Origin: Sinohyriopsis cumingii
Lineage: Eukaryota; Mollusca; Bivalvia; Unionida; Unionidae
NCBI GenBank assembly: GCA_028554795.2
Contig: CM068831.1
Location: 60,444,769 to 60,508,768 of the forward strand
Length of the DNA: 64,000 nt
Direction of reading: 5' to 3'
Shown: positions 38,200 through 64,000 of the stretch, piece after piece
Position numbering within the stretch: position 1 is the stretch's first letter
How the letters are laid out: each line of letters begins with the position of its first letter
Translations under genes and position numbers: made by a program
The notes under the pieces: generated by a model
Seen by the model: the letters and a program-made list of their open reading frames with translations, nothing else
What the model was told of the DNA's origin: nothing
Databases searched by the model: none

Positions 38200-41130
38200 T
38201 AAGTTGTTCAGTAGCTCCCGAAGATTATGACATTCAAGAGACTCAAATAGACTTCTGGAAAATTTAAAACCATGACTTAAACCTACATAATATTACAATT
38301 AGCAAACCCCAAGACATCATGTGCCTAAACCAAGCCATCATCATGGGTCGATCGTATGCGAAGAAGAACGAAACCGGAAAATGTATAGCAGTCCTAGTGT
38401 TTCGAAAACCTAGCTACCCAGACGGAAAATTATAAGCTTGATTATCATCACTAAGTTTCAAATAATTACTAATGCTACTGGATTTTTCTGAAGCGTAGGC
38501 CACTCGTGTGGGCATCTTATTCGAACCAATAATTTCGGGGCACACATTTGCCCAGAGAAGAAAAGATGTCGTCCTTATGACCAGATCGTGGACTTTGAAC
38601 ATATATGCTAAATCCAAATATATAAGGATGAGCTGTAGTCAGACTTGAAGATACTCCATAACAAAAATAAAAGGACACGATTGGATTTTAGTTTTTGCTT
38701 GCTTGGAATATGCGCAAGAAACTTACATTGACTCTCCTAATTGTTGTGTAGCTAATTTGGCTTACGAGAAGTAGATACAAAAGCCTATGTTGTTTCAGTC
38801 GTGGTAATATTGGTACGTGCAAACAATCCTTCTGGGTCCCTGGGCTCTTTACGAATTTTCCTAATGGATCAAAGACCAAATAGATGACTATTAAGATAAT
38901 ACGACAGTCGAAGATAAGCTACAGTGATGAATCACAATTTCTTAGGATACGATTGACAATTTTTCTGAAATATTATTCAAAACAAGGCACCGAGTGTCAC
39001 ACAGTCACAATGAAAAAAGCCAAAGTCATCTACCTGATAGTGAGACAAGTAAAGTTTAAAAATTCCATAAATATTTTGACATGCCTTTGCCTAAAACAGT
39101 TGGAATGATAGAAATGTATAAAGGTTATTAATTAACACATTTTAGTACCAAAGCTGACCAACACGTTGCACTAACGCATTTGAGAGACGTTCACTATTAC
39201 GAACTCGACGGCATGCTCACACAACAATGAGATTCATGTTATGCTTTGTACCAAACTTACTTTTCGAACTCTTTTGACTTTCAGGAAGAAATGATGAAAT
39301 ATTGCTGACAATTATTTCTGCATCTGATGGGTATCGATCCTATGAAGTAAGGTTTTACCATCGATAAAACACGAGAATAAAAAGCCATAATACCCAAAAA
39401 GCCATAATCTTACGTCTCGGTCTGGCATCGACACTTCAACTAAAGTTTTCCGTTCGTTGCATAACTTGTGTGAAGATGAAAACTTGAAATAACATGCTTG
39501 AAACGGGAGAGAAAAGAAAATTCGAAGTCTTTCTTTGCATGGTTGTTATTTACAAAACTCCAAGATTGACTAAGAGTTCCGTGAATGAATTGTACCAATA
39601 AACAGACCAACAACGCTTAATGATTAAAAATTCATATAAATCAAACGGTAGAAATGTGTGAGCACGAGTACGATCGACGTTTCAAAACCGATCCCAAATT
39701 TAGGCGCATTGCCGAACGTTACGACGAGTTGGATCTTGTACGTTTGAACCCAGGCGACAGTTTGTTTGGAGAATGAAACAGTGTGACACGGTTTATCTCA
39801 AGGATAACAAAATTAAATACATCGACATATTTTCTTTGTATACATGAGTGTGCAAATATGCTCTGTTTCCCACAGGGGACCCTGAAATGTTAGCAGTATA
39901 TATTAACGTAAACCAAAATCTTCATTACCAAGTAATGGCCAAAACAAAAACAAAATCTTACATCCATCTCATTTCTGCAATCGGTCTGACATACATTATC
40001 GCCAAGGAAATCTGATGTTTCCTTTAAGGTTAAACATGCAATCGGGACAATTTTATTGTCACAAATATAAAGAACGCGCTTTCATGGGAACGTGTGTGAG
40101 TGAAATTTGTTCGTGCTCTGGATCGTGATTACCGAGTGTTAAATATCTATGAAATTTGTCACTTTCTTACTAAGGAATGATACCAAAAGGACGACAAAAG
40201 GACGAATACTCTAAGAAGAAAGCAGCGGTGGCTCAGCTGATGTTATACCGGACTCACGACAGAAAGGGCGCGGGCTCTAATCCTATCGCGAGACCAGTCG
40301 GCAAGGCAAGTTACTCCAATTGTCTTGGCAGTAAATAACCTATCTGTGTTTCTGTGATGTAATGCGAAAAACTAACCAAACAAACCAATAAAGGAATGTT
40401 CAATGGGCTGCGTAAAAGGATTTCTCAAATTGAAAAAAGAAGCAAGTGGCTAGCACTGTTTGTCTGAGACTCCAGAAGGCAAGAGAAATTCAAATAATGG
40501 TACCGTTCCTCAGAACTGATCCCTTTAGCCGATATGGAAAAGAATGTGAAAGACGTACCTTTGCAAACGTAGCGAAAATAATTTTCTAGGGGAACATTGG
40601 GCCAAGGTCCAATGTTAACCAACACGAAAAACTTTGCAGACCCACGTTCATACATTTAAACTGAATGACAAAGGGAAATTCATGAAATATCTGGCGATCG
40701 TTTGTTGAGATTCGCTCTTGGAAAATTATAAAGAACCTACATAAATTGCACCTCCTGACCCGTTAGGAAATGACATCACTGCAGCGTACATGACAAACAA
40801 TGCGCATTTAAAATTGTAGGAAGCCTTAGAATATTTAGAAGATTTCGTTGTTTTTGTACACTGGCAGCCGTATGTTTAGCAATCGCCCTCATAGCAATTG
40901 CCTAAAAATCGAAAGGGACCGTTTAGGTGCCTGAATGGAGGAGCGCCAGAAGACACTATCGGCAGTTTCGCAAGAGGTGGCACCAAACGTTATGGATACC
41001 AATACCGAGACCGACGGAGAAAACTTCACTCATAATGCAGAGTAAAAAATCTGAGACTGAACTAACGATCTAGTCAAGTAGTGAAATTTTGACGTGTTGA
41101 ACGAAGCCTACAGCACTGACAAGTATCAAG
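38200..41130 (+). pseudogene. Element B family B DNA polymerase
   Basis: Landmarks in order on the plus strand: DIMCLNQAIIMGRSYAKKN (about 38317); MCEHEYDRRFKTDPKF...LNPGDSLFG (39654-39776); motif A KIKYIDIFSLY (about 39810), with the Asp kept; RVLNIYEICHFLTKE (about 40130-40178); FLKLKKEASG-like text after a SINE (about 40415); SRGTLGQGP / NIGPRSN (about 40590), the K.N.FWGK region; AAYMTNNAHLKL...ALEYLEDFVVFVHW (about 40775-40865), where motif C DTDS is missing; and SFARGGTKRYGYQYRDRR (about 40965). This is the other common Polinton-type PolB lineage (GGPK.YGY type). Many frame breaks make it inactive. Confidence 0.8.
40180..40390 (+). mobile_element. tRNA-headed SINE inserted in element B PolB
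   Basis: cagcggtggctcagctgatg resembles a pol III A box and gggctctaatcctatcgcga a weak B box. A body with aaggcaagttactccaattg and cagtaaataacc follows, and then a tail of (aaacc)n type. The 8 bp aaggaatg stands at 40173-40180 and again at 40391-40398, consistent with a target-site duplication. PolB-like coding sequence lies immediately on both sides. Confidence 0.65.
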
Positions 41131-41429
41131 TTTTTCGTTTGACAACATTAGATCGACACAAAAACACATTTAGAAAAACACAAAGTCGACCTTTAGAAAA
41201 GTCTATCTAATCGTGTACCTGAAACTAGAGCGACTTCCAGTCAACAACACTTCATCGTACCAACACACTGAGCTCCAGTATGAAAAATTACAAGAAAGTC
41301 ACTTAGAATGACGATATTTACTTTCACAGAACAACCATAGCAGACTTACTGTGGACTCCAAGTTCAAAGAATCCTAATTTTCTGATGTCTTTTCTGACTA
41401 CTGCGATTGTTCATGTCGAGCAAACACGT

Positions 41430-43934: not shown

Positions 43935-44770
43935 AAAAGGTATATTGGTGTCATGGTGCTGCTGTTAGAGTCGTCACGGATTCTTTTTATATTAGGCGAT
44001 GTAACAAGGAACTTTCTGAGCCATTTATCGAAGAATACACCAGCAGTGTCAACTGAAGTTCTCGGCGAATAAAACGTGAGCAAATACCTAAATATTCAGA
44101 GTCAGCTGACGTCAAAACACCACATATTTATTACTTTAATGTCAATTTATCAGAACCATCATTATCACCATCAGCAAACAATCCAATCACGAGACATAAC
44201 AAGGTCTATCTGAATGATCCAGGTGGTTCTTGGTGAAACAACACGTGCGATAGAATTATTTAAAAACCCTGACATGATTGTGTTGACGCCAACTCAACGG
44301 CTTGCCAGAGAGATGAGACAACTTGGTGTCAGCGCATGCACGTATCATAGTCTCTTTAGATGGCGAGGTGATGCATGGACCCTCGATAGAAAGGGTGAGA
44401 AAAATATCCAGAGAATAATTATCTGGGATGAGATTTGTACAGTATCCAAAGATGTTTTAGAAATGTTTCTTGATTGATAATTAACAAAGTCTACTGCAAT
44501 TATCATGTGTGGCGATCATGGACAGCCTCCGTTGTTTACAAGTGAATCACCACACGAATGGTTGATCAAATATATTAGCCACGAAGAAGAAGTTTTTTTT
44601 ACAAATATCGATCACAGGATGAACAACTACGACAACTGAAATCGTTAATTAGATTACAATCTGACAAAGTTCATTGCGAAATACTGCATACCGTAATTTC
44701 AGACACTCCTCATTTGCAGCAGTGGCTTTGCCACCGCCGCCGTCACAAACAACAACGTCAACAGGAATTA
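43935..44770 (+). pseudogene. Element B superfamily 1 helicase (Pif1/RecD-like)
   Basis: YWCHGAAVRVVTDSFYIRR opens the readable part. A damaged Walker A follows (44200-44235; YLNDPGGS, where the frame shifts inside the loop and the invariant Lys reads Glu), then IVLTPTQRLAREMRQ (motif Ia), CTYHSLFRW, and motif II IIWDEICTV (about 44425). After a stop it continues IIMCGDHGQPP (motif III, GD.QQ.P-like, about 44505), then LIRLQSDKVHCEIL. These are SF1 helicase motifs. Similar unannotated helicases are, as I recall, linked to PolB genes in other eukaryotic mobile elements. Its position beside PolB suggests a replication role. Not functional. Confidence 0.65.
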
Positions 44771-44799
44771 TCAAAGCGGTGAAGAAACAATTAGCTCGT

Positions 44800-44930
44800 G
44801 ATGTGCAAGATGACAAAAAAACAGCGCCAGTTTGACATGGATATGGAATTTGTCATGATGCTGAAACAAAGACAAAGAAATCACTGCGCCTGCTGTAACA
44901 CAATAATGTTGTGGTAATATTTTACAATGA
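44800..44930 (+). pseudogene. Cys-rich (HNH-like?) fragment after helicase
   Basis: The frame MTKKQRQFDMDMEFVMMLKQ followed by RNHCACCNTIMLW shows a C-x2-C knuckle after a helical lead, reminiscent of the N-terminal part of HNH-type endonuclease domains. Only one knuckle is present. Tentative. Confidence 0.3.
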
Positions 44931-44954
44931 TGTAAGACAATGTAACAGACGTAG

Positions 44955-45910
44955 ATGAGCTTCATTCATCAGAGCATGTGTTAGCGTTGTTTGTTGGCTC
45001 GTATCCAATCTGGTGGTAACTGGGTTCACGTGCAAATCCACGTTGAGTGGCTGTTGAATCTGGTCTGTTGATTAGTGGCAGCACAGTAGATCTTACCACG
45101 CTGTTACCCTCAACACGGGATCAGTTGATCTTGCTGTAACATCCTCAAGTTCACCAGGTTTATATAAATACCTCACAGTTACTTTGCTACCCAACACTGG
45201 TTGTTGCAGATAATCTGGTGATTTTCGTCTTTGTATGTGTTTGTTTCGCAATTGTTTCATGTCAGTTCCACTCGTGGCCTCGTTGTTAACGCGGCCACCA
45301 CATGATGTAGTCTCGCAACCCATTCAGGAGATATGTCCTGAACGCTCAGCGTTCCGCTAAGCAATTATTTGGCACATTGATGACCAAAGAGTCGCTATGC
45401 AAGTGTTTGATTAAAGCTTTCAACGATTGTCTCATCTCGATATATCGCTGTGTGTCCACGTTTGATCTTAACGTGCTGTTGTTGTTGTATCATTGTCGTT
45501 ACTGCACCGATAAATGCTTTACCAAGAGCAACCTGTAGCAATTGTGGCCATAGCAGACCGTCATGCAGGCCGGGTCCTAGCGAATAAATTCCTTCAAACG
45601 CTGCTGCGACGTCCGCTGCTATTTTAGACGATAACAGTTCAGCCTCTTTGTATATACTTGCAACGTCTACGACAGTCAACGCATATTTGTATTGCGCCGT
45701 TTTCATACGTCATGCAGTAAAAAAAAAGATATCTGCCTGATAATCTTTGCTGGGCATGCTCACATCAAACCATCCATGTTGAATAGTTTTGAGACGTGGA
45801 AGATAACTTTGCCCTAAGGCCTATCGGCTAAAGCACGAACATCGGCGAGTTCTTTAATTGCTGCTGTACCTCTCCAATATCCTCTTGGACTTTAATAAAT
45901 TGGCTGCATT
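44955..45910 (-). pseudogene. Element B retrovirus-like integrase
   Basis: Minus strand: AAIKELADVRAL (about 45860), ALGQSYLPRLKTIQ (about 45805), FDVSMPSKDYQADI with the first catalytic Asp (about 45755), then an open stretch 45706-45395 with YKYALTVVDVASIYKEAELL, WPQLLQVALGKAF (second catalytic Asp replaced by Ala) and IYRDETIVESFNQTLA with the catalytic Glu. After a frame change 45323-45093 continues VNNEATSGTDMKQLRN and VTVRYLYKPGELED with TDPVLRV, the typical Polinton integrase C-terminal domain. The family integrates the element by DDE chemistry. One catalytic residue is lost and the frame is broken at least three times. Confidence 0.85.
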
Positions 45911-45939
45911 ATGTAACTGTTGGCGTTTGATTGCCCGCT

Positions 45940-46235
45940 CCCTGCACTATTTTACCTTTCATCGCCGATCTTGACATTCACGATATCTCGTTGGTGTAGA
46001 TCTGGATTTTTTTTCGTCAAGTCTAATATCAAGGCGAGTTCCAGGACCACAATACTTATATTCTGGAATGTGTTTATCCCCAGAATACTTAGCCCATGGT
46101 GTTTCATATATTTTCCGGAGTGCTTTAGCAATATCGCTGTCAGCTGTCTCAGCAGTAATACGCACAAACGTATATTTTGTGTGCCGCATTTTACACATTT
46201 ACATGTAAGTGCCGAAGTGTTATTTTTCAACGTGG
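45940..46235 (-). pseudogene. Element B PLA2-domain protein
   Basis: Reading down from about 46230: KCVKCGTQN zinc-ribbon-like knuckle, then SDIAKALRKIYETPWAKYSG, then YKYCGPGTRLDIRLDEK, which contains an intact phospholipase A2 calcium-binding loop (YCGPGT). The part that should carry the catalytic His-Asp is missing and the integrase follows almost at once. The same N-terminal knuckle plus PLA2 order is seen in element A. In parvoviruses and adintoviruses this domain is part of a minor capsid protein. Confidence 0.75.
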
Positions 46236-46314
46236 TTACTCGCAGAAAATGTTGTACCAGTGACTGTCATGCATCGAACACAATATAAACTCATGATTAT
46301 AAATAATATTATAT

Positions 46315-46915
46315 TTGTACAATATGAACGTGATTTCAACGACACGTGAACAAGAACCAGTTAAGCATCGTCCAGTGTTACCAAATTCCATTCGAGCTAT
46401 TATAATTGATCCATCTGCGTCGGGTAAAACTCAGTTGTTGCTCAACCTGATAATGAGATGGCTCAAATGGGACAAACTTTATTTAGTAGCGCCATCTGTG
46501 GATGACCAACGATGCTGTAATGTTCTTAAGGAATTTAATGAATCTTCAGCAGTTGAAGAAAATGTTATTGAATTCATCAAAAATATCGATGAAGCGCCGT
46601 CCGTTGAAGATCTCAACGGGATATCAGCAATCGAGTGGTTTACGATGAAGTCATGGATGACAAACAAGCAAATACATTCAGAATAGTTTCACGGGGAAAA
46701 GACAGAAACACAGATGTCATTTACGTTACTCAGCGGTATACTCATATTCCCAATGTAACGAGAGGCAACTCCAATTTTGGGGTTATTTTAACGGGGTTGA
46801 TACACATACGCTGCGAAATATTCATCACACATGGTGTCACGGCGACATGGACATAGGCAAGTTTAAGAAAATTCCGCATGGATTCATCGCGAGAAGTTTA
46901 AGCAAAACGTTATCG
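46315..46915 (+). pseudogene. Element B FtsK/A32-type packaging ATPase
   Basis: The first 120 codons are open: REQEPVKHRPVLPNSIRAII, Walker A IDPSASGKTQLLLNLIMRW with the Lys-Thr pair retained, KLYLVAPSVDDQRC and NVIEFIKNIDEAPSVEDLNG. A frame change near 46640 precedes Walker B RVVYDEVMDDKQ and DRNTDVIYVTQRYTHIPNV (about 46705-46760), then the C-terminal MDIGKFKKIPHGF. This is better preserved than the copy in element A. It is divergent from the PLA2 gene across about 80 nt. Confidence 0.8.
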
Positions 46916-59420: not shown

Positions 59421-59850
59421 CTAACTCGAAAATACTTCTGGAATAAATAATCTTTACATAAGTATTTTGAATTGTTAGCTTCTTGAAATATGAAAATAAT
59501 GTTTCATTATATAAATTTAGTTTTAAATTAAGAGGTATAATATTATCCCTACAGTAATCTATTACAAAGATTCTGGATATATGTTCATCTTCTTCTTTCC
59601 ATCTCTTGATGACTAACTGTTTGAATTTATGTTTAAAGTTGTACATGTATCGTTTGATAACAATATATTTGTAATATGTATTCAGTAAGTATGTAAATGC
59701 TAATCATATTGAATTCTTGAACTCAGTTGAATTGATTTTTGTTTGTCTAAAGTGAGATATTCTTCACCAAAATGTATTCACGTGATACAGAAGTTATGTC
59801 GAATTGTATTCCACATTTCCTCGAATAACAAGAATTAACAATAGTAGTAA
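58925..59850. other. AT-rich flank; (CA)n-(AT)n at 59329-59418
   Basis: No gene recognised. The (AT)n tract of about 80 bp generates Tyr-Ile frames that are artefacts. Element C begins to the right. Confidence 0.5.
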
Positions 59851-59854
59851 GGTG

Positions 59855-60118
59855 GGCCACTATACGTACAATGGAAATTAGCATTACGGAGACCCCTGTG
59901 CCACTATACGTACAATGGAAATTTAACATGGCGAAAAATCGTGGGTCAATATACGTACAAGGGGATTTAACATGGCGAAAAATCGTGGGTTAATATACGT
60001 ACAAGGGGAATTAACATGGAAAAAAAATTGTGGGCCGATATACGTACAAGGGGAATTTAACATGGGGGAATAGAGTTTGGGGATTGTTTAGGGACAAAGG
60101 GGAATTGAATATGGGATT
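59855..60118. repeat. Tandem repeat, about 45 bp unit, at left end of element C
   Basis: Six copies of a unit with core atatacgtacaaggggaatt followed by taacatggcgaaaaatcgtg. Copies start near 59858, 59900, 59945, 59990, 60036 and 60082 and diverge towards the outer two. Each core contains the palindrome tacgta. The position suggests a subterminal repeat of the element, though no inverted counterpart is in the window. Confidence 0.75.
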
Positions 60119-60162
60119 TTTTTTTTTTAAATTTTTTTTTAAAAAGGGGTAGGCAATGGAAA

Positions 60163-60206
60163 GGCTATCTCTTTTCGAGAAATATGGCTGGCCCTGAAAA
60201 GGGCCT
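60163..60206 (-). terminator. Histone-type mRNA 3' stem-loop plus HDE-like element (copy 1)
   Basis: On the minus strand, 18 nt after the stop codon at 60225: cccaaa, then ggcccttttcagggcc, then agcca. This is a 6 bp stem with a UUUC loop and the CCAAA / A-CCA flanks of replication-dependent histone mRNAs. About 14 nt further, ctcgaaaagagatagcc gives a purine-rich GAAAAGAGA, where the histone downstream element that pairs with U7 snRNA lies. Confidence 0.75.
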
Positions 60207-60224
60207 TTGGGTTTTCTTCTGCTT

Positions 60225-60614
60225 CTAGTTTCTTCTTTTTCTCCACCAAGTTCTTATTTTATCTCCAACACTCTTTCTCTTCTTTTCTTTCTTTTTTTTC
60301 TCCTGCTCTTCTTTCTTCTTCTCTTCCTCCTCTTCTTTCTTCCTCTTCTCATTTTCTTCTTCTTTTTCAATCTTTTCGTTCCATTTGCTTATTCTTATTC
60401 TTTCCTCTTCACCCTCCTTCTCCTCCTTTATCTCTTTCATGACACCACTAATCTTGTCCTTTACCTTTTTTAACTTATTAATTTCCATCTTTACACGATG
60501 GGGACTATAGGAATAATGGTCTTCAACCAGTCTTATCAACATCTGCTCCATCATTCCTAAGTTGTCTAAAACGTCTTGTAATGTTTGTATTTTGTCCATT
60601 TGGTTAGAAGCCAT
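60225..60614 (-). CDS. Element C small charged coiled-coil protein 1
   Basis: 129 residues from the ATG at 60614 (MASNQMDKIQTLQDVLDNLG). Residues 1-60 are helical with regular Leu/Met/Ile spacing (MMEQMLIRLVEDH; INKLKKVKDKI). Residues 60-115 are almost entirely Glu, Lys and Arg, a single long charged helix. The C-terminus is basic (RKSVGDKIRTWWRKRRN). The upstream box and the histone-type stem-loop bracket it exactly as for the other two small genes. The N-terminal helical half plus charged tail is shared in outline with them, suggesting paralogues. Function unknown; the basic tail could bind nucleic acid. No close family recognised. Confidence 0.65.
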   Translation of the reverse strand: MASNQMDKIQTLQDVLDNLGMMEQMLIRLVEDHYSYSPHRVKMEINKLKKVKDKISGVMKEIKEEKEGEEERIRISKWNEKIEKEEENEKRKKEEEEEKKKEEQEKKKKEKKRKSVGDKIRTWWRKRRN

Positions 60615-60663
60615 CTTCTTTTTTTATTCTTTGCAGAATGGTTTGAACGACGAATACTGTGGG

Positions 60664-60703
60664 TTCTTATACTTAAGGCGCGTACGTGAAGGAAAACATC
60701 CCC
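60664..60703 (-). promoter_or_regulatory. Conserved upstream box + TATA (small gene 1)
   Basis: Plus-strand text gcgcgtacgtgaaggaaaac followed by atcccc (60678-60703), one mismatch from the two other cassette copies, lies 63 nt upstream of the ATG at 60614. Between box and gene, minus-strand agtataagaa (TATA-like) occupies about 60664-60673. Confidence 0.7.
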
Positions 60704-60746
60704 CTAAAACGTAAAATTGATCTTACCTAGATCATGACCAAACAAC

Positions 60747-60772
60747 GCGCGGACGTGAAGGAAAACATCCCC
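60747..60772 (-). promoter_or_regulatory. Extra copy of the conserved box
   Basis: A second perfect gcgcggacgtgaaggaaaac + atcccc, 43 nt beyond the first box of gene 1. Between them lies aaaattgatcttacctagatcatgacca, which also follows the box of gene 2, so the promoter unit of about 70 bp was tandemly duplicated. Confidence 0.65.
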
Positions 60773-60820
60773 TACTTTTTCATTTCATATAATAAAACCC
60801 AAACTATACTCTCCACATAA

Positions 60821-61540
60821 CGCTAAGAAACAATAAACAAATCCATAATCTACTATCCACACAATCGTACGTGAGCGGGTACAAACACAAACACACAAAC
60901 ACATACGCTAAGAAACAATAAACAAAATCCATAATCTACTATCCTCGCAATCGTACGTGAGCGCTTACAAAACCCAAACTATACTCTCCACATACGCTAA
61001 GAAACAATAAACAAATCCATAATCTACTATCCACACAATCGTACGTGAGCGGGTACAAACACAAACACATACGCTAAGAAACAATAAACAAATCCATAAT
61101 CTACTATCCACACAATCGTACGTGAGCGGGTACAAACACAAACACACAAACACAAACACACAAACACATACGCTAAGAAACAATAAACAAATCCATAATC
61201 TACTATCCACACAATCGTACGTGAGCGGGTACAAACACAAACACACAAACACAAACACACAAACACATACGCTAAGAAACAATAAACAAATCCATAATCT
61301 ACTATCCACACAATCGTACGTGAGCGGGTACAAACACAAACACACAAACACAAACACACAAACACATACGCTAAGAAACAATAAACAAAATCCATAATCT
61401 ACTATCCACACAATCTTACGTGAGCGCTTATAAAACCCAAACTATACTCTTCACATACGCTAAGAACAATAAACAAATCCATAATCTACTATTCACACAA
61501 TCGTACGTGAGCGGGTACAAACACAAACACACAAACACAT
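60821..61540. repeat. Tandem repeat, eight copies, 75-110 bp unit
   Basis: Core cgctaagaaacaataaacaa then atccataatctactatccac and acaatcgtacgtgagcgggt, followed by a variable (acaaac)n. Copies begin at 60821, 60906, 60995, 61072, 61171, 61270, 61369 and 61459. Unit length varies with the (acaaac)n part. The long repetitive open frames on both strands across it (for example 61411-60965) are products of the repeat. A diverged ninth copy lies at about 62300-62440. Confidence 0.9.
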
Positions 61541-61544
61541 ACCC

Positions 61545-61660
61545 TCACACTATCTTAAAAAAGAGTTAGTGTTTATATTCACACTACTCTACCTACACAT
61601 TGGCAAATTGATGGTTATTTCTTTTCTAGAGTATTGGGTAGCCCTGAAAAGGGCTGTTTT
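61545..61660 (-). repeat. 115 bp 3'-flank block, copy 1 (pairs with 62432-62555)
   Basis: The block accctcacac...aaaagagttagtgttta...cacactactctacctacaca...ttatttcttttctagagtat, ending in the stem-loop, recurs at 62432-62555 with few changes. It lies across the 3' end of small gene 2 and after small gene 3, so the whole 3' processing region is duplicated along with the genes. Confidence 0.8.
61614..61655 (-). terminator. Histone-type mRNA 3' stem-loop plus HDE-like element (copy 2)
   Basis: Minus strand: aaaac, then agcccttttcagggct, then accca, a 6 bp stem with a UUUC loop and the exact ACCCA 3' flank of histone mRNAs. After about 13 nt comes tctagaaaagaaataa, a purine-rich HDE-like stretch. 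The open frame of small gene 2 runs through the stem-loop, see that entry. Confidence 0.75.
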
Positions 61661-62075
61661 TTTTTTTTTGAACTTCATGGACACCTGGTTTATGGTGGCA
61701 CCTTCCAGGCCTGGCGCCACATACACATCTTATCCCCCAGTTACTTTTTACTTTTTTGGGGGAGAGAGCAGAGGCAGGATATGTCGCTTCAGAATCCCAA
61801 TTTTCGCTCTCTGGGATTCTGAAATTTATTCTTCTTCTCTTCTTTTCCTTCTCCTCCTCCTCTTCTTTGTTTCTTCTCTCCTCCTCTTTGTATCTTCTTT
61901 CCTCTTCTTCTTCTTCTTTATATCTTCTCTCCTCCTCTTCTTTTTTTCTTCTTTCCTCCTCCTCTCTTATCCTTCCCTCCTCCACAATGGCTTCCGCGGC
62001 CAGTTCATTCAACAGGCGCCTGGCATATTCCAGATGCACATGAAGTTCCAACAGTTTAGACAGTCTCGTGTTCAT
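61626..62075 (-). CDS. Element C small charged coiled-coil protein 2
   Basis: 149 codons from the ATG at 62075 (MNTRLSKLLELHVHLEYARR). Residues 1-30 are an amphipathic helix resembling the start of protein 3 (L.KL.E..V.L...R..L). Residues 32-85 are Glu/Arg/Lys repeats such as RRYKEEEE. The remainder (INFRIPESENWDSE...) is less charged. The frame only ends inside the downstream stem-loop region after a run of more than 12 A. A homopolymer frameshift near the AAAAAA at about 61755 may have removed an earlier stop, since the related genes end 18-25 nt before the stem-loop. The true C-terminus is therefore uncertain. Confidence 0.6.
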   Translation of the reverse strand: MNTRLSKLLELHVHLEYARRLLNELAAEAIVEEGRIREEEERRKKEEEERRYKEEEEEERRYKEEERRNKEEEEEKEKKRRRINFRIPESENWDSEATYPASALSPKKVKSNWGIRCVCGARPGRCHHKPGVHEVQKKKNSPFQGYPIL

Positions 62076-62127
62076 TTTTGGTGTTGATCAATCAACAAGG
62101 GTAGCTAGACTTCCCAGCGAGTTTCAA

Positions 62128-62165
62128 TTTATAGTGAAAGCGCGGACGTGAAGGAAAACATCCCC
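62128..62165 (-). promoter_or_regulatory. Conserved upstream box + TATA (small gene 2)
   Basis: gcgcggacgtgaaggaaaac + atcccc (62140-62165) stands 64 nt upstream of the ATG at 62075. A clear TATAAA (minus strand, 62133-62128) lies between box and gene. A degenerate copy of the box (gcgcggacctaaaagaaaca) is at 62216-62235. Confidence 0.75.
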
Positions 62166-62431
62166 TTAAAAAACATAAAATTGATGTTACCTACATCATG
62201 ACCAAAAACAACAACGCGCGGACCTAAAAGAAACACTCACTCACTTTTTTATGCTACCCATCACTATTTTAAATTTTTTTATAAATCACTTCAATAGACT
62301 ATCCACATACGCAAAGCAATCCAATCTAACCTCAAATCTACACCTCAAACACCAAATAAAGACATCATTTTAATCTACTATCCACACCAATGTACTTGAT
62401 CACTTACAAACACACAAACTCACAAACACAT

Positions 62432-62555
62432 ACCCTCACATTTTTTTAAAAAGAGTTAGTGTTTATTTTCACACTACTCTACCTACACACATTGGCAAAT
62501 CGATCGTTATTTCTTTTCTAGAGTATTGGGGGGTAGCCCTGAAAAGGGCTGTTTT
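62432..62555 (-). repeat. 115-124 bp 3'-flank block, copy 2
   Basis: Second copy of the block described at 61545-61660, following small gene 3. Confidence 0.8.
62507..62550 (-). terminator. Histone-type mRNA 3' stem-loop plus HDE-like element (copy 3)
   Basis: Minus strand, 25 nt after the stop of small gene 3: aaaac, then agcccttttcagggct, then accccc. The HDE-like tctagaaaagaaataa follows after about 14 nt. It is the same arrangement as copies 1 and 2. Confidence 0.75.
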
Positions 62556-62575: not shown

Positions 62576-62941
62576 TTAGTTTCTAAGAATGCGATGTCCT
62601 CTGAGGATAGACTTTCTGGCGATAGGTCTGCTTCTTCGGAAAGAGAAGAAGAACTCTTTGGTGTCGATACGACAATCGACAAAGCCTCTGTCAGCTTCAG
62701 GTTGCTGTTGCTGTTGTTGTTGTTGTTGTTGCTGCTGTTGCTGCTGTCTCTGAAGTCTGTACTTCTCTGTCCATTCTTCTTTTTCCCTGTTCATTTCTTC
62801 TCTGAAGAGCTCTTCTATCAGGTCTTCAGTGATTTTTAACATTCTCACATTCTCTATTTCTTCTGGCTTCGGTATCAGACTGTGTCTGACCCTATGCAAA
62901 TTCACGTAGGCTTCGTTGAGTTTAGCTAGTTTGGAGCACAT
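62576..62941 (-). CDS. Element C small charged coiled-coil protein 3
   Basis: I start it at the ATG 62941-62939 (MCSKLAKLNEAYVNLHRVRH), giving 121 residues. An earlier TTG in frame is not needed, and this ATG gives the same 65 nt distance to the upstream box as in the other cassettes. Residues 1-60 are helical and charged (EEIENVRMLKITEDLIEELF), then comes a polyglutamine tract of about 16 residues encoded by CAA/CAG repeats. The C-terminus is basic and aromatic (KEFFFSFRRSRPIARKSILR). The N-terminal helix resembles proteins 1 and 2. Function unknown. Confidence 0.65.
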   Translation of the reverse strand: MCSKLAKLNEAYVNLHRVRHSLIPKPEEIENVRMLKITEDLIEELFREEMNREKEEWTEKYRLQRQQQQQQQQQQQQQQQPEADRGFVDCRIDTKEFFFSFRRSRPIARKSILRGHRILRN

Positions 62942-62994: not shown

Positions 62995-63032
62995 CTTAAA
63001 GTCAAAGCGCGGACGTGAAGGAAAACATCCCC
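62995..63032 (-). promoter_or_regulatory. Conserved upstream box + TATA-like (small gene 3)
   Basis: gcgcggacgtgaaggaaaac + atcccc (63007-63032), identical to the gene 2 copy, lies 65 nt upstream of the ATG at 62941. A weak TATA-like tttaagaacc (minus strand, about 63000-62991) lies between. Confidence 0.7.
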
Positions 63033-63372: not shown

Positions 63373-64000
63373 CTAGTAATCTAGGATGACTTCTCTCAAA
63401 CTGTTGATTTCTATGGCATTATCGAATTCTGCATACAGGATGACGTTCACCGTTTCATCAGGGTCTCGGTCTTTAAACTGAATTTCCACACGAATCTGGC
63501 CGGATTTTATAGGGTGGAAATGTCCCTCGTCGCTGCCTTGGTCTGGAGTGAAATCGAAAGCCCACAAAGCGTAGCCTCCTGCATAATCCTCGTACGTAAT
63601 ACCGTGACTGGTATTGGTTCCTAACTGTCCGGTGGCTTCGTACAGGGACAAGTACGATCTCAAGTAATTCTTCTTGGTAAAGTCAGGTTCGAAAGGTCGG
63701 GTACACAAGGTCTTGCCATCGCGACTGACTTCGATTTTGGACACGCCAAAGTGTTGAAAGTAGAAAGGATTTTGTTCGGCAGCTCCGTTGAAGGCTGTAT
63801 TCTCGACGATACCAACGATCAAACGTTTGGGTAACTGTCCTTGGAACAGATGATCTTCGATCATGGATCGCTGTCCCTTGGGAATGGTGAAGGTTTTCAC
63901 TTCCACGCGTCGTATGGGATACTTGGCGGTCGTTCTGCTCAACGTCTGACTGATGTCGTTTCCCACTTTAGGTAACACTTCCACACGGCGTACGTAGAGT
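63373..64000 (-). CDS. Polinton-type major capsid protein (F54H12.2-like), C-terminal part
   Basis: The frame is open from the right edge of the window to TAG at 63373 (209 codons visible). It reads LYVRRVEVLP..., then AKYPIRRVEVKTFTIPKGQR, DHLFQGQLPKRLIVGIVENT, AFNGAAEQNPFYFQHFGVSK, the FEPDFTKKNYLRSYLSLY block, YAGGYALWAFDFTPDQ and the C-terminus INSLREVILDY. These are hallmarks of the widespread invertebrate 'F54H12.2-like' family, which I identify as the double jelly-roll major capsid protein of Polinton-like viruses. The visible part corresponds to the second jelly roll. No stops or frameshifts are seen, in contrast to elements A and B. No histone-type stem-loop follows; instead AATAAA signals are present. 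Confidence 0.85.
   Translation of the reverse strand, partial: LYVRRVEVLPKVGNDISQTLSRTTAKYPIRRVEVKTFTIPKGQRSMIEDHLFQGQLPKRLIVGIVENTAFNGAAEQNPFYFQHFGVSKIEVSRDGKTLCTRPFEPDFTKKNYLRSYLSLYEATGQLGTNTSHGITYEDYAGGYALWAFDFTPDQGSDEGHFHPIKSGQIRVEIQFKDRDPDETVNVILYAEFDNAIEINSLREVILDY

Follow-up and report, generated by a model that had tools for sequence, protein, structure and literature searches.

Element C and its five genes with histone-type signals

The right end of the 64,000-nt stretch of the Sinohyriopsis cumingii genome analysed here (the window; C8:60444769-60508768 of a 2.9-Gb host genome) is occupied by a Polinton/Maverick virus-like element, element C, which runs from window position 59843 to about 77279 (17.4 kb). 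Its right part was read from the sequences to the right of the window (L009 and L010), and all coordinates past 64000 are approximate window equivalents. Element C has Pfam matches to PolB (E 1.2e-32), an rve integrase (2.5e-14) and an A32-like packaging ATPase (1.9e-7), besides a chromodomain open reading frame (ORF) beside the integrase. At the sequence level, there is strong evidence that this virus-like element has a histone-type gene set: five small accessory genes, three on the left (G1-G3) and two on the right (G4/G5), appear to carry a histone-gene expression module. The initial annotation had assigned histone-type 3' ends to three genes; all three are real, but the whole element has five, two of them past the window edge. 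The genes within the window are:

60225..60614, minus strand: G1, 129-aa coiled-coil-like protein with a basic end (from the ORF list; relatives in loci L001, L005 and L006)
61626..62075, minus strand: G2, coiled-coil-like protein with a Cys/His-rich end; the frame here runs through the hairpin
62576..62941, minus strand: G3, 121-aa polyglutamine-containing basic protein

G4 is a 186-aa ORF on the minus strand and G5 a 77-aa Arg-rich ORF on the plus strand (isoelectric point 11.6, 18% Arg), both in L010. A Pfam scan gave no histone match for G1-G4. G5 had no PHROGs match, and the relatives found for it are two proteins of unrecorded source. The stop codon expected before the G2 hairpin is missing in the window copy, while relatives stop 25 (L005), 36 (L008) and 86 nt (L006) upstream of the hairpin. 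L001 lacks any ORF of at least 50 aa that ends within 200 nt of the G2-type hairpin.

Hairpins and histone downstream elements

Each of the five 3' ends consists of a hairpin with a UUUC loop followed by GAAAAGA, the latter within a sequence resembling a histone downstream element (HDE). Scores refer to the histone 3' stem-loop model RF00032, whose gathering cut-off is 34 bits:

60190..60205, minus strand: G1 hairpin GGCCCTTTTCAGGGCC; 35.6 bits, over the cut-off
60170..60178, minus strand: G1 HDE-like TCGAAAAGA; GAAAAGA starts 13 nt past the hairpin
61640..61655, minus strand: G2 hairpin AGCCCTTTTCAGGGCT; 31.0 bits, under the cut-off
61620..61628, minus strand: G2 HDE-like TAGAAAAGA; GAAAAGA at offset 13
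62535..62550, minus strand: G3 hairpin AGCCCTTTTCAGGGCT; 28.6 bits, under the cut-off
62512..62520, minus strand: G3 HDE-like TAGAAAAGA; GAAAAGA at offset 16
about 75853, minus strand: G4 hairpin, past the window edge; 41.2 bits
about 76917, plus strand: G5 hairpin, past the window edge; 35.6 bits

All three 16-nt hairpins that the initial annotation had reported on the minus strand proved perfect, with the first lying one base away from where it had been placed. The predicted spacing of 13-14 nt to GAAAAGA applied to G1 and G2 but not to G3, and of the two stop codons said to lie 18 and 25 nt before their hairpins, the latter distance was right for G3 whereas that of G1 is 19 nt (G4, 25 nt; G5, 24 nt). 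The RF00032 scan that it had proposed returned low E-values for G1, G2 and G3 (1.3e-7, 7e-6 and 5.3e-5, respectively, in a 7-kb scan), yet one of these hairpins exceeded the cut-off and two stayed under it; element-wide, three of the five exceed it (G1, G4, G5).

In the 64 kb of the window, the G1-G3 hairpins are the only matches to RGCCCTTTTCAGGGCY at two or fewer mismatches, where 0.06 were expected and none of 100 shuffles reached three. On both strands of element C, T[AC]GAAAAGA occurs exactly five times, each occurrence being the HDE behind one of the five hairpins. A chance origin of the hairpins is ruled out by the shuffles and by their co-occurrence with HDE and promoter. We also rejected a bacterial- or Pol III-type terminator (hairpin then T) on the plus strand, given that for G1-G4 the genes, HDEs and promoters are all consistent with the minus strand, and that the G5 hairpin is on the plus strand, like its gene. 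The module is restricted to G1-G5 among the ORFs examined: a hairpin within 250 nt 3' was found for none of 11 other ORFs (of 12 such ORFs in all).

Promoters of the hairpin genes

A 23-nt motif that is one or two bases off the host H2B promoter precedes three of the five hairpin genes (G1-G3). The sequence GGGGATGTTTTCCTTCACGTCCGCGC is common to all three promoters, with one mismatch in the near copy of G1. Element C has four copies of the motif plus one distant match, all upstream of G1-G3, and the motif stands 6 nt upstream of TATAAG (G1), TATAAAT (G2) or TTTAAG (G3). From GTCCGCGC/GTACGCGC to the ATG, the distance is 71-73 nt in G1-G3.

60678..60700, minus strand: near promoter motif of G1, H2B-like; one mismatch to the element motif, two to host H2B; before TATAAG
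60747..60769, minus strand: second, distal motif copy of G1; one mismatch to host H2B
62140..62162, minus strand: promoter motif of G2, H2B-like; one mismatch to host H2B; before TATAAAT
63007..63029, minus strand: promoter motif of G3, H2B-like; one mismatch to host H2B; before the TATA-like TTTAAG
62213..62233, minus strand: exact 21-mer of the host H4 core promoter (TTTCTTTTAGGTCCGCGCGTT), upstream of G2

None of the 12 other element C ORFs has GTCCGCGC/GTACGCGC within 250 nt upstream. G4 and G5 form a divergent pair; their CCAAT boxes lie at -91/-131 and -93/-133, their TATA boxes at -54/-52, and the G5 promoter arrangement was identical in all four copies read. The mammalian H4 promoter contains a subtype-specific element to which HiNF-P binds, and HiNF-P in turn recruits NPAT (PMC5706932). 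By analogy, GTCCGCGC might play the role of that element here.

A tandem array of 77- and 99-bp units (window 60989-61539) lies in the interval from G1 to G2, on the upstream side of the G1 promoter. Each unit contains CTCACGTACG on the minus strand, which resembles the promoter motif, and the array is possibly a promoter-side repeat.

Match to the histone genes of the host

We compared these signals with the replication-dependent histone genes of the host. Its H3 genes were represented by 30 near-identical loci (L011-L040) with the hairpin GGCCCTTTTTAGGGCC, of which 29 also show the H4 hairpin; the sequence of the remaining one (L022) is cut. The host H2B gene (L086, confirmed by an H2B search) ends in GGCCCTTTTCAGGGCC and thus has the same core and the same UUUC loop as element C. 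The three distinct host genes H2B, H3 and H4 all carry CTAGAAAAGA, with GAAAAGA at offset 13 in each. Across 19 element hairpins read, this offset was 13 in 15 and 16 in one. Host stop-to-hairpin distances are similarly short (28 nt in H3, 27 nt in H4). Besides hairpin core and the sequence and spacing of the HDE, element C thus shares a promoter motif plus TATA with host H2B and H4: the H2B promoter contains GATGTTTTCCATCACGTCCGCGC 29 nt before its TATA, and the H4 promoter contains TTTCTTTTAGGTCCGCGCGTT, where GTCCGC and TATA precede the ATG by 70 and 54 nt, respectively. Element C differs from the host genes in that G1-G5 encode coiled-coil-like, polyglutamine or Arg-rich proteins and in that two of its five hairpins have an A-U closing pair. 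On many short contigs (C310, C531, C561 and others), the host histone genes are arrayed in tandem, each unit measuring about 8.27 kb.

A BLAST comparison of one host H3/H4 locus and the H2B locus with pieces of element C gave the same picture. Compared with a best score of 33.4 bits in 60 shuffles, four of the five hairpin-plus-HDE blocks (37-47 bits), the H4 promoter 21-mer (41.1 bits) and three H2B promoter motifs (39-41 bits) stood out. The only other matches above the shuffles were of low complexity, namely TTG repeats and a purine-rich run of H2B coding sequence (37.2 bits), and a single 16-mer in H3 coding sequence (31.5 bits) was within chance.

The proposal in the initial annotation that the element adopted host histone 3'-end signals is supported by this agreement in hairpin and HDE geometry. 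The histone-type promoter motifs on the same genes, absent from the 12 other ORFs, agree with this proposal as well.

Conservation and abundance of the module

The eight best of 75 scored RF00032 matches (L001-L008), which were thus picked for a hairpin, all turned out to be element C or a relative. Seven of them have G1-G5-type genes; in L004, the promoter motif is the same but the ORF, of 182 aa, is a different one. Seven of these loci contain neighbouring G2 or G4 hairpins (n=7) that had not been picked in this way: four were perfect, two had an A-C closing mismatch and one was damaged. In four gene groups, hairpin identity was 0.96-1.00 compared to 0.53-0.93 in the 30 nt before; the alignments comprise only hairpins found by pattern and thus leave out the G4 hairpin of L002. 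The contrast was clearest in the G2 group (hairpin 0.97, HDE 0.96, preceding 30 nt 0.53) and small in the G4 group (0.96 vs 0.93). HDE identity was 0.93-0.96 in three of the groups; in the G5 group it was 0.62, and two copies there lack part of the HDE. Among six copies picked by PolB alone, three have the full G4 hairpin and two have its 3' arm plus HDE at the fetched edge. Two of the results that the initial annotation had named as speaking against it were not obtained: the covariance model does hit, and the hairpins, rather than being lost from orthologous elements whose genes remain, are retained in related copies in which much of the surrounding sequence has diverged, although in a few copies they are damaged. 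Within the stem only the closing pair varies, being G-C in some copies and A-U in others with two A-C exceptions, and this covariation is weak because 31 of 500 shuffles reach its score. In L098 (C6:136198551-136198646), the G4 hairpin has the loop UUUU, as in host H3/H4, rather than the UUUC of the other copies.

Hairpin and promoter motif are also abundant genome-wide, and they co-occur across copies. The exact 20-mer hairpin form AGCCCTTTTCAGGGCTACCC occurs 19,306 times and the promoter motif GATGTTTTCCWTCACGTCCGCGC has 30,227 exact matches, with none for the reversed control of either; some of the motif matches listed read A where the window copy reads T and thus equal the host H2B 23-mer. 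One hundred hairpin places listed on C1 resolve into 38 pairs and 24 singles, and 35 of the 38 pairs have a spacing of 768-886 bp, like G2-G3. For 50 of the 66 hairpins in C1:1-7.65 Mb, an exact motif lies upstream on the same strand at a distance of 410-499 nt, and for 65 there is one within 3 kb; circular shifts gave a mean of 0.17 and a maximum of 3 such hairpin-motif pairings. Judging from the exact signal counts and the G2-G3-like pairing, the element may be present in on the order of ten thousand copies. A PolB search retrieved at least 64 near-identical copies (PolB 98-100% identical) out of a larger candidate set. Polintons thus appear extraordinarily abundant and young in this genome.

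Other features of element C and the window

59843..60214: left terminal inverted repeat of element C; partner at about 76908-77279 (L010 3177-3548)
63373..64000, minus strand: 3' part of a 437-aa ORF, the rest being in L009; without hairpin, AATAAA 109 nt past the stop

The terminal inverted repeats are 97% identical over 375 columns (blastn). The termini are of the form AG...CT, the left one starting with AGTAGTAAGG and the right one finishing with CTTACTACT, and the flanks AACAAT / AACAAG agree in five of six bases, resembling a 6-bp duplication. The G1 hairpin with its HDE is contained in the inner end of the left repeat, that of G5 in the right copy; with these hairpins at the inner ends of both repeats, two different outward-running genes share one 3' end. 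Tandem repeats of 44 bp (TATACGTACAAGGGGAATTTAACATGGCG...) occupy window 59905-60065 within the repeat.

The 437-aa ORF is probably the major capsid protein, though profile searches assigned no capsid protein: a 208-aa part of it had no Pfam match and a 251-aa part no PHROGs or PDB match at E<=0.05. The 309-aa ORF, scanned whole, matched neither Pfam nor PHROGs, and no protease was identified in element C. A 149-aa plus-strand ORF (L010:1406-1855, about window 75137-75586) shows two CCHC zinc knuckles by eye and has a TATA and a downstream ATTAAA but no hairpin. The PolB frame of this copy comprises 733 codons (L009:7005-9101, about window 70936-73032); among the matches listed, 44 of 64 copies have at least 1326 codons open in PolB. 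Older, diverged Polinton fragments lie at window 38292-41269 and 44214-46686, with PolB pieces of 33-52% aa identity to element C, a helicase-like AAA ORF and, by eye, a P-loop ORF nearby; no histone hairpin was found there.

A proposed model of S-phase-linked expression and its rivals

Based on these signals, transcription of G1-G3 would start from an H2B/H4-type core promoter and that of G4/G5 from the divergent CCAAT-plus-TATA promoter, most likely driven by the S-phase histone transcription factors of the host. Each transcript would be read from a single uninterrupted ORF and cut by the SLBP/U7 machinery after the hairpin, leaving an end without poly(A). The capsid candidates, the polymerase and the integrase lack the module and are presumably expressed in the ordinary way. 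The purpose might be that G1-G5 proteins are made while cellular, and hence element, DNA gets copied. We consider it likely that at least some of the five genes undergo histone-type 3' processing with S-phase-linked transcription. That a block of protein genes in a virus-like lineage has come under complete histone-gene control, from core promoter to 3' end, is the bolder claim, towards which we lean with less assurance.

Several observations weigh against these readings. The G2 and G3 hairpins are under the RF00032 cut-off, the G3 hairpin scored 31.5 bits in the BLAST test, not above the shuffles, and GAAAAGA is altered in three of the 19 element hairpins. AATAAA follows the hairpin in G3 and G4, 109 and 92 nt past the stop, and in G4 another lies just before it, so that polyadenylated forms are possible. 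On the promoter side, G4 and G5 have no H2B-like motif, and the motif-to-TATA gap is 29 nt in host H2B vs 6 nt in element C. Among the copies, the stem of the G4 hairpin in L002 (91% identity) is damaged while its HDE is retained, and one of the six PolB-picked copies has unrelated sequence at the predicted place of the G4 hairpin. As to the host machinery, none of seven U7 snRNA candidates fetched was convincing (best 16.4 bits vs a cut-off of 34). Searches of the host for U7 with RF00066 and for an SLBP domain were both negative, with their controls likewise silent. Finally, no hairpin over the RF00032 cut-off was found in 13 distant Polinton-like loci, none of which is as long as a whole element.

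The 3' ends might also be genuinely histone-type and yet serve as a sponge, with transcripts from many copies titrating SLBP or U7 and upsetting histone supply while the proteins are secondary. The very large number of signal copies and their near-identity to those of the host would suit such a role, which we nonetheless regard as unlikely, since the hairpins are mostly found just past the stops of frames that can be recognised from copy to copy, and a promoter set to match accompanies them, as in ordinary gene control. Still a little less probable is passive capture, in which an ancestor took up histone-gene fragments whose signals are now useless relics. Promoter and 3' sequences nearly identical to host H2B and H4 as well as the damaged signals in some copies fit this scenario, as does the example of Tm1-HH, a root-knot nematode transposon that has captured a histone hairpin (PMC3169594). 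Relics, however, would hardly be expected to show the G2-group contrast (0.97/0.96 for hairpin/HDE vs 0.53 before, if small in G4) or to recur as a module on several different genes; the alternation of the closing pair between G-C and A-U (two A-C exceptions) points the same way, albeit weakly, with 31 of 500 shuffles reaching its score.

We give the least credence to hairpins with a DNA- or end-related role, in replication start, packaging or integration, that merely resemble the histone signal. Two of the five do sit at the inner ends of the terminal inverted repeats, but the other three are outside them, which excludes a role purely in these repeats, and all five are on the sense strand of a gene and have the HDE at host-like spacing, three of them together with a histone-type promoter.

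If histone-type expression of G1-G5 is correct, the non-histone mRNAs of the element would be produced during S phase, possibly at the histone locus body, and would carry a stem-loop rather than poly(A) at their 3' ends. They would be the first mRNAs of this kind in animals that code for proteins other than histones. Such expression would also explain how selected genes of the element could be tied to host DNA replication without a cell-cycle switch of their own. The element C genes could serve as an independent test set for the recognition requirements of SLBP, U7 and the histone locus body, with the copies within one genome providing many natural variants of the signals.

Comparison with known systems

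With the Polintons/Mavericks and adintoviruses described in PMC11071296, element C shares the viral-type PolB, the rve integrase with an adjoining chromodomain ORF, the A32-like ATPase, terminal inverted repeats and a size of about 17 kb. Adintoviruses are defined there by a PolB with an N-terminal OTU-like domain and a Hexon recognisable by BLASTp. One PolB named adintovirus among the matches listed (from a Rhodactis coral) is 43% identical to that of element C. Used as a single query, PolB had no IMG/VR relative; a PolB profile retrieved four IMG/VR contigs and nine Polinton-like loci in bacterial genome records (mostly metagenome-assembled genomes), most of the latter presumably being eukaryotic contamination. 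These are the 13 distant loci mentioned above. The initial annotation had suggested searching related elements for the same hairpins, which were found in copies within the host genome but in none of the 13, incomplete as they are, over the cut-off, and the hairpin is thus unsupported as a general Polinton trait. In a scan of IMG/VR, GGYYCTTTTNAGRRCCACC occurred in two contigs, with GAAAAGA absent from the next 30 nt, and RGCCCTTTTCAGGGCYACCC in none. The histone module is therefore a feature of a lineage that may be broad or narrow.

Titles and abstracts in the surveyed part of the Creative Commons-licensed PMC literature do not describe histone-type 3' ends or promoters in Polintons or adintoviruses, nor do those on SLBP, the histone downstream element or replication-dependent histones in combination with viruses or transposons describe such a module. 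The nearest precedent found is Tm1-HH/Cg-1, a non-coding transposon from root-knot nematodes into which a histone hairpin has been captured (PMC3169594). Both are mobile elements with a histone hairpin. Tm1-HH, however, is a small, non-autonomous Mutator/Foldback element with one hairpin and without obvious coding potential, and is characterised by composite foldback repeats and 9-bp target duplications. Given the 44-bp tandem units in the terminal repeat of element C, repeats alone cannot separate the two; its many ORFs and its 6-bp duplication-like flank do set it apart from Tm1-HH. Above all, several protein-coding genes of element C, unlike Tm1-HH, carry promoter, hairpin and HDE together.

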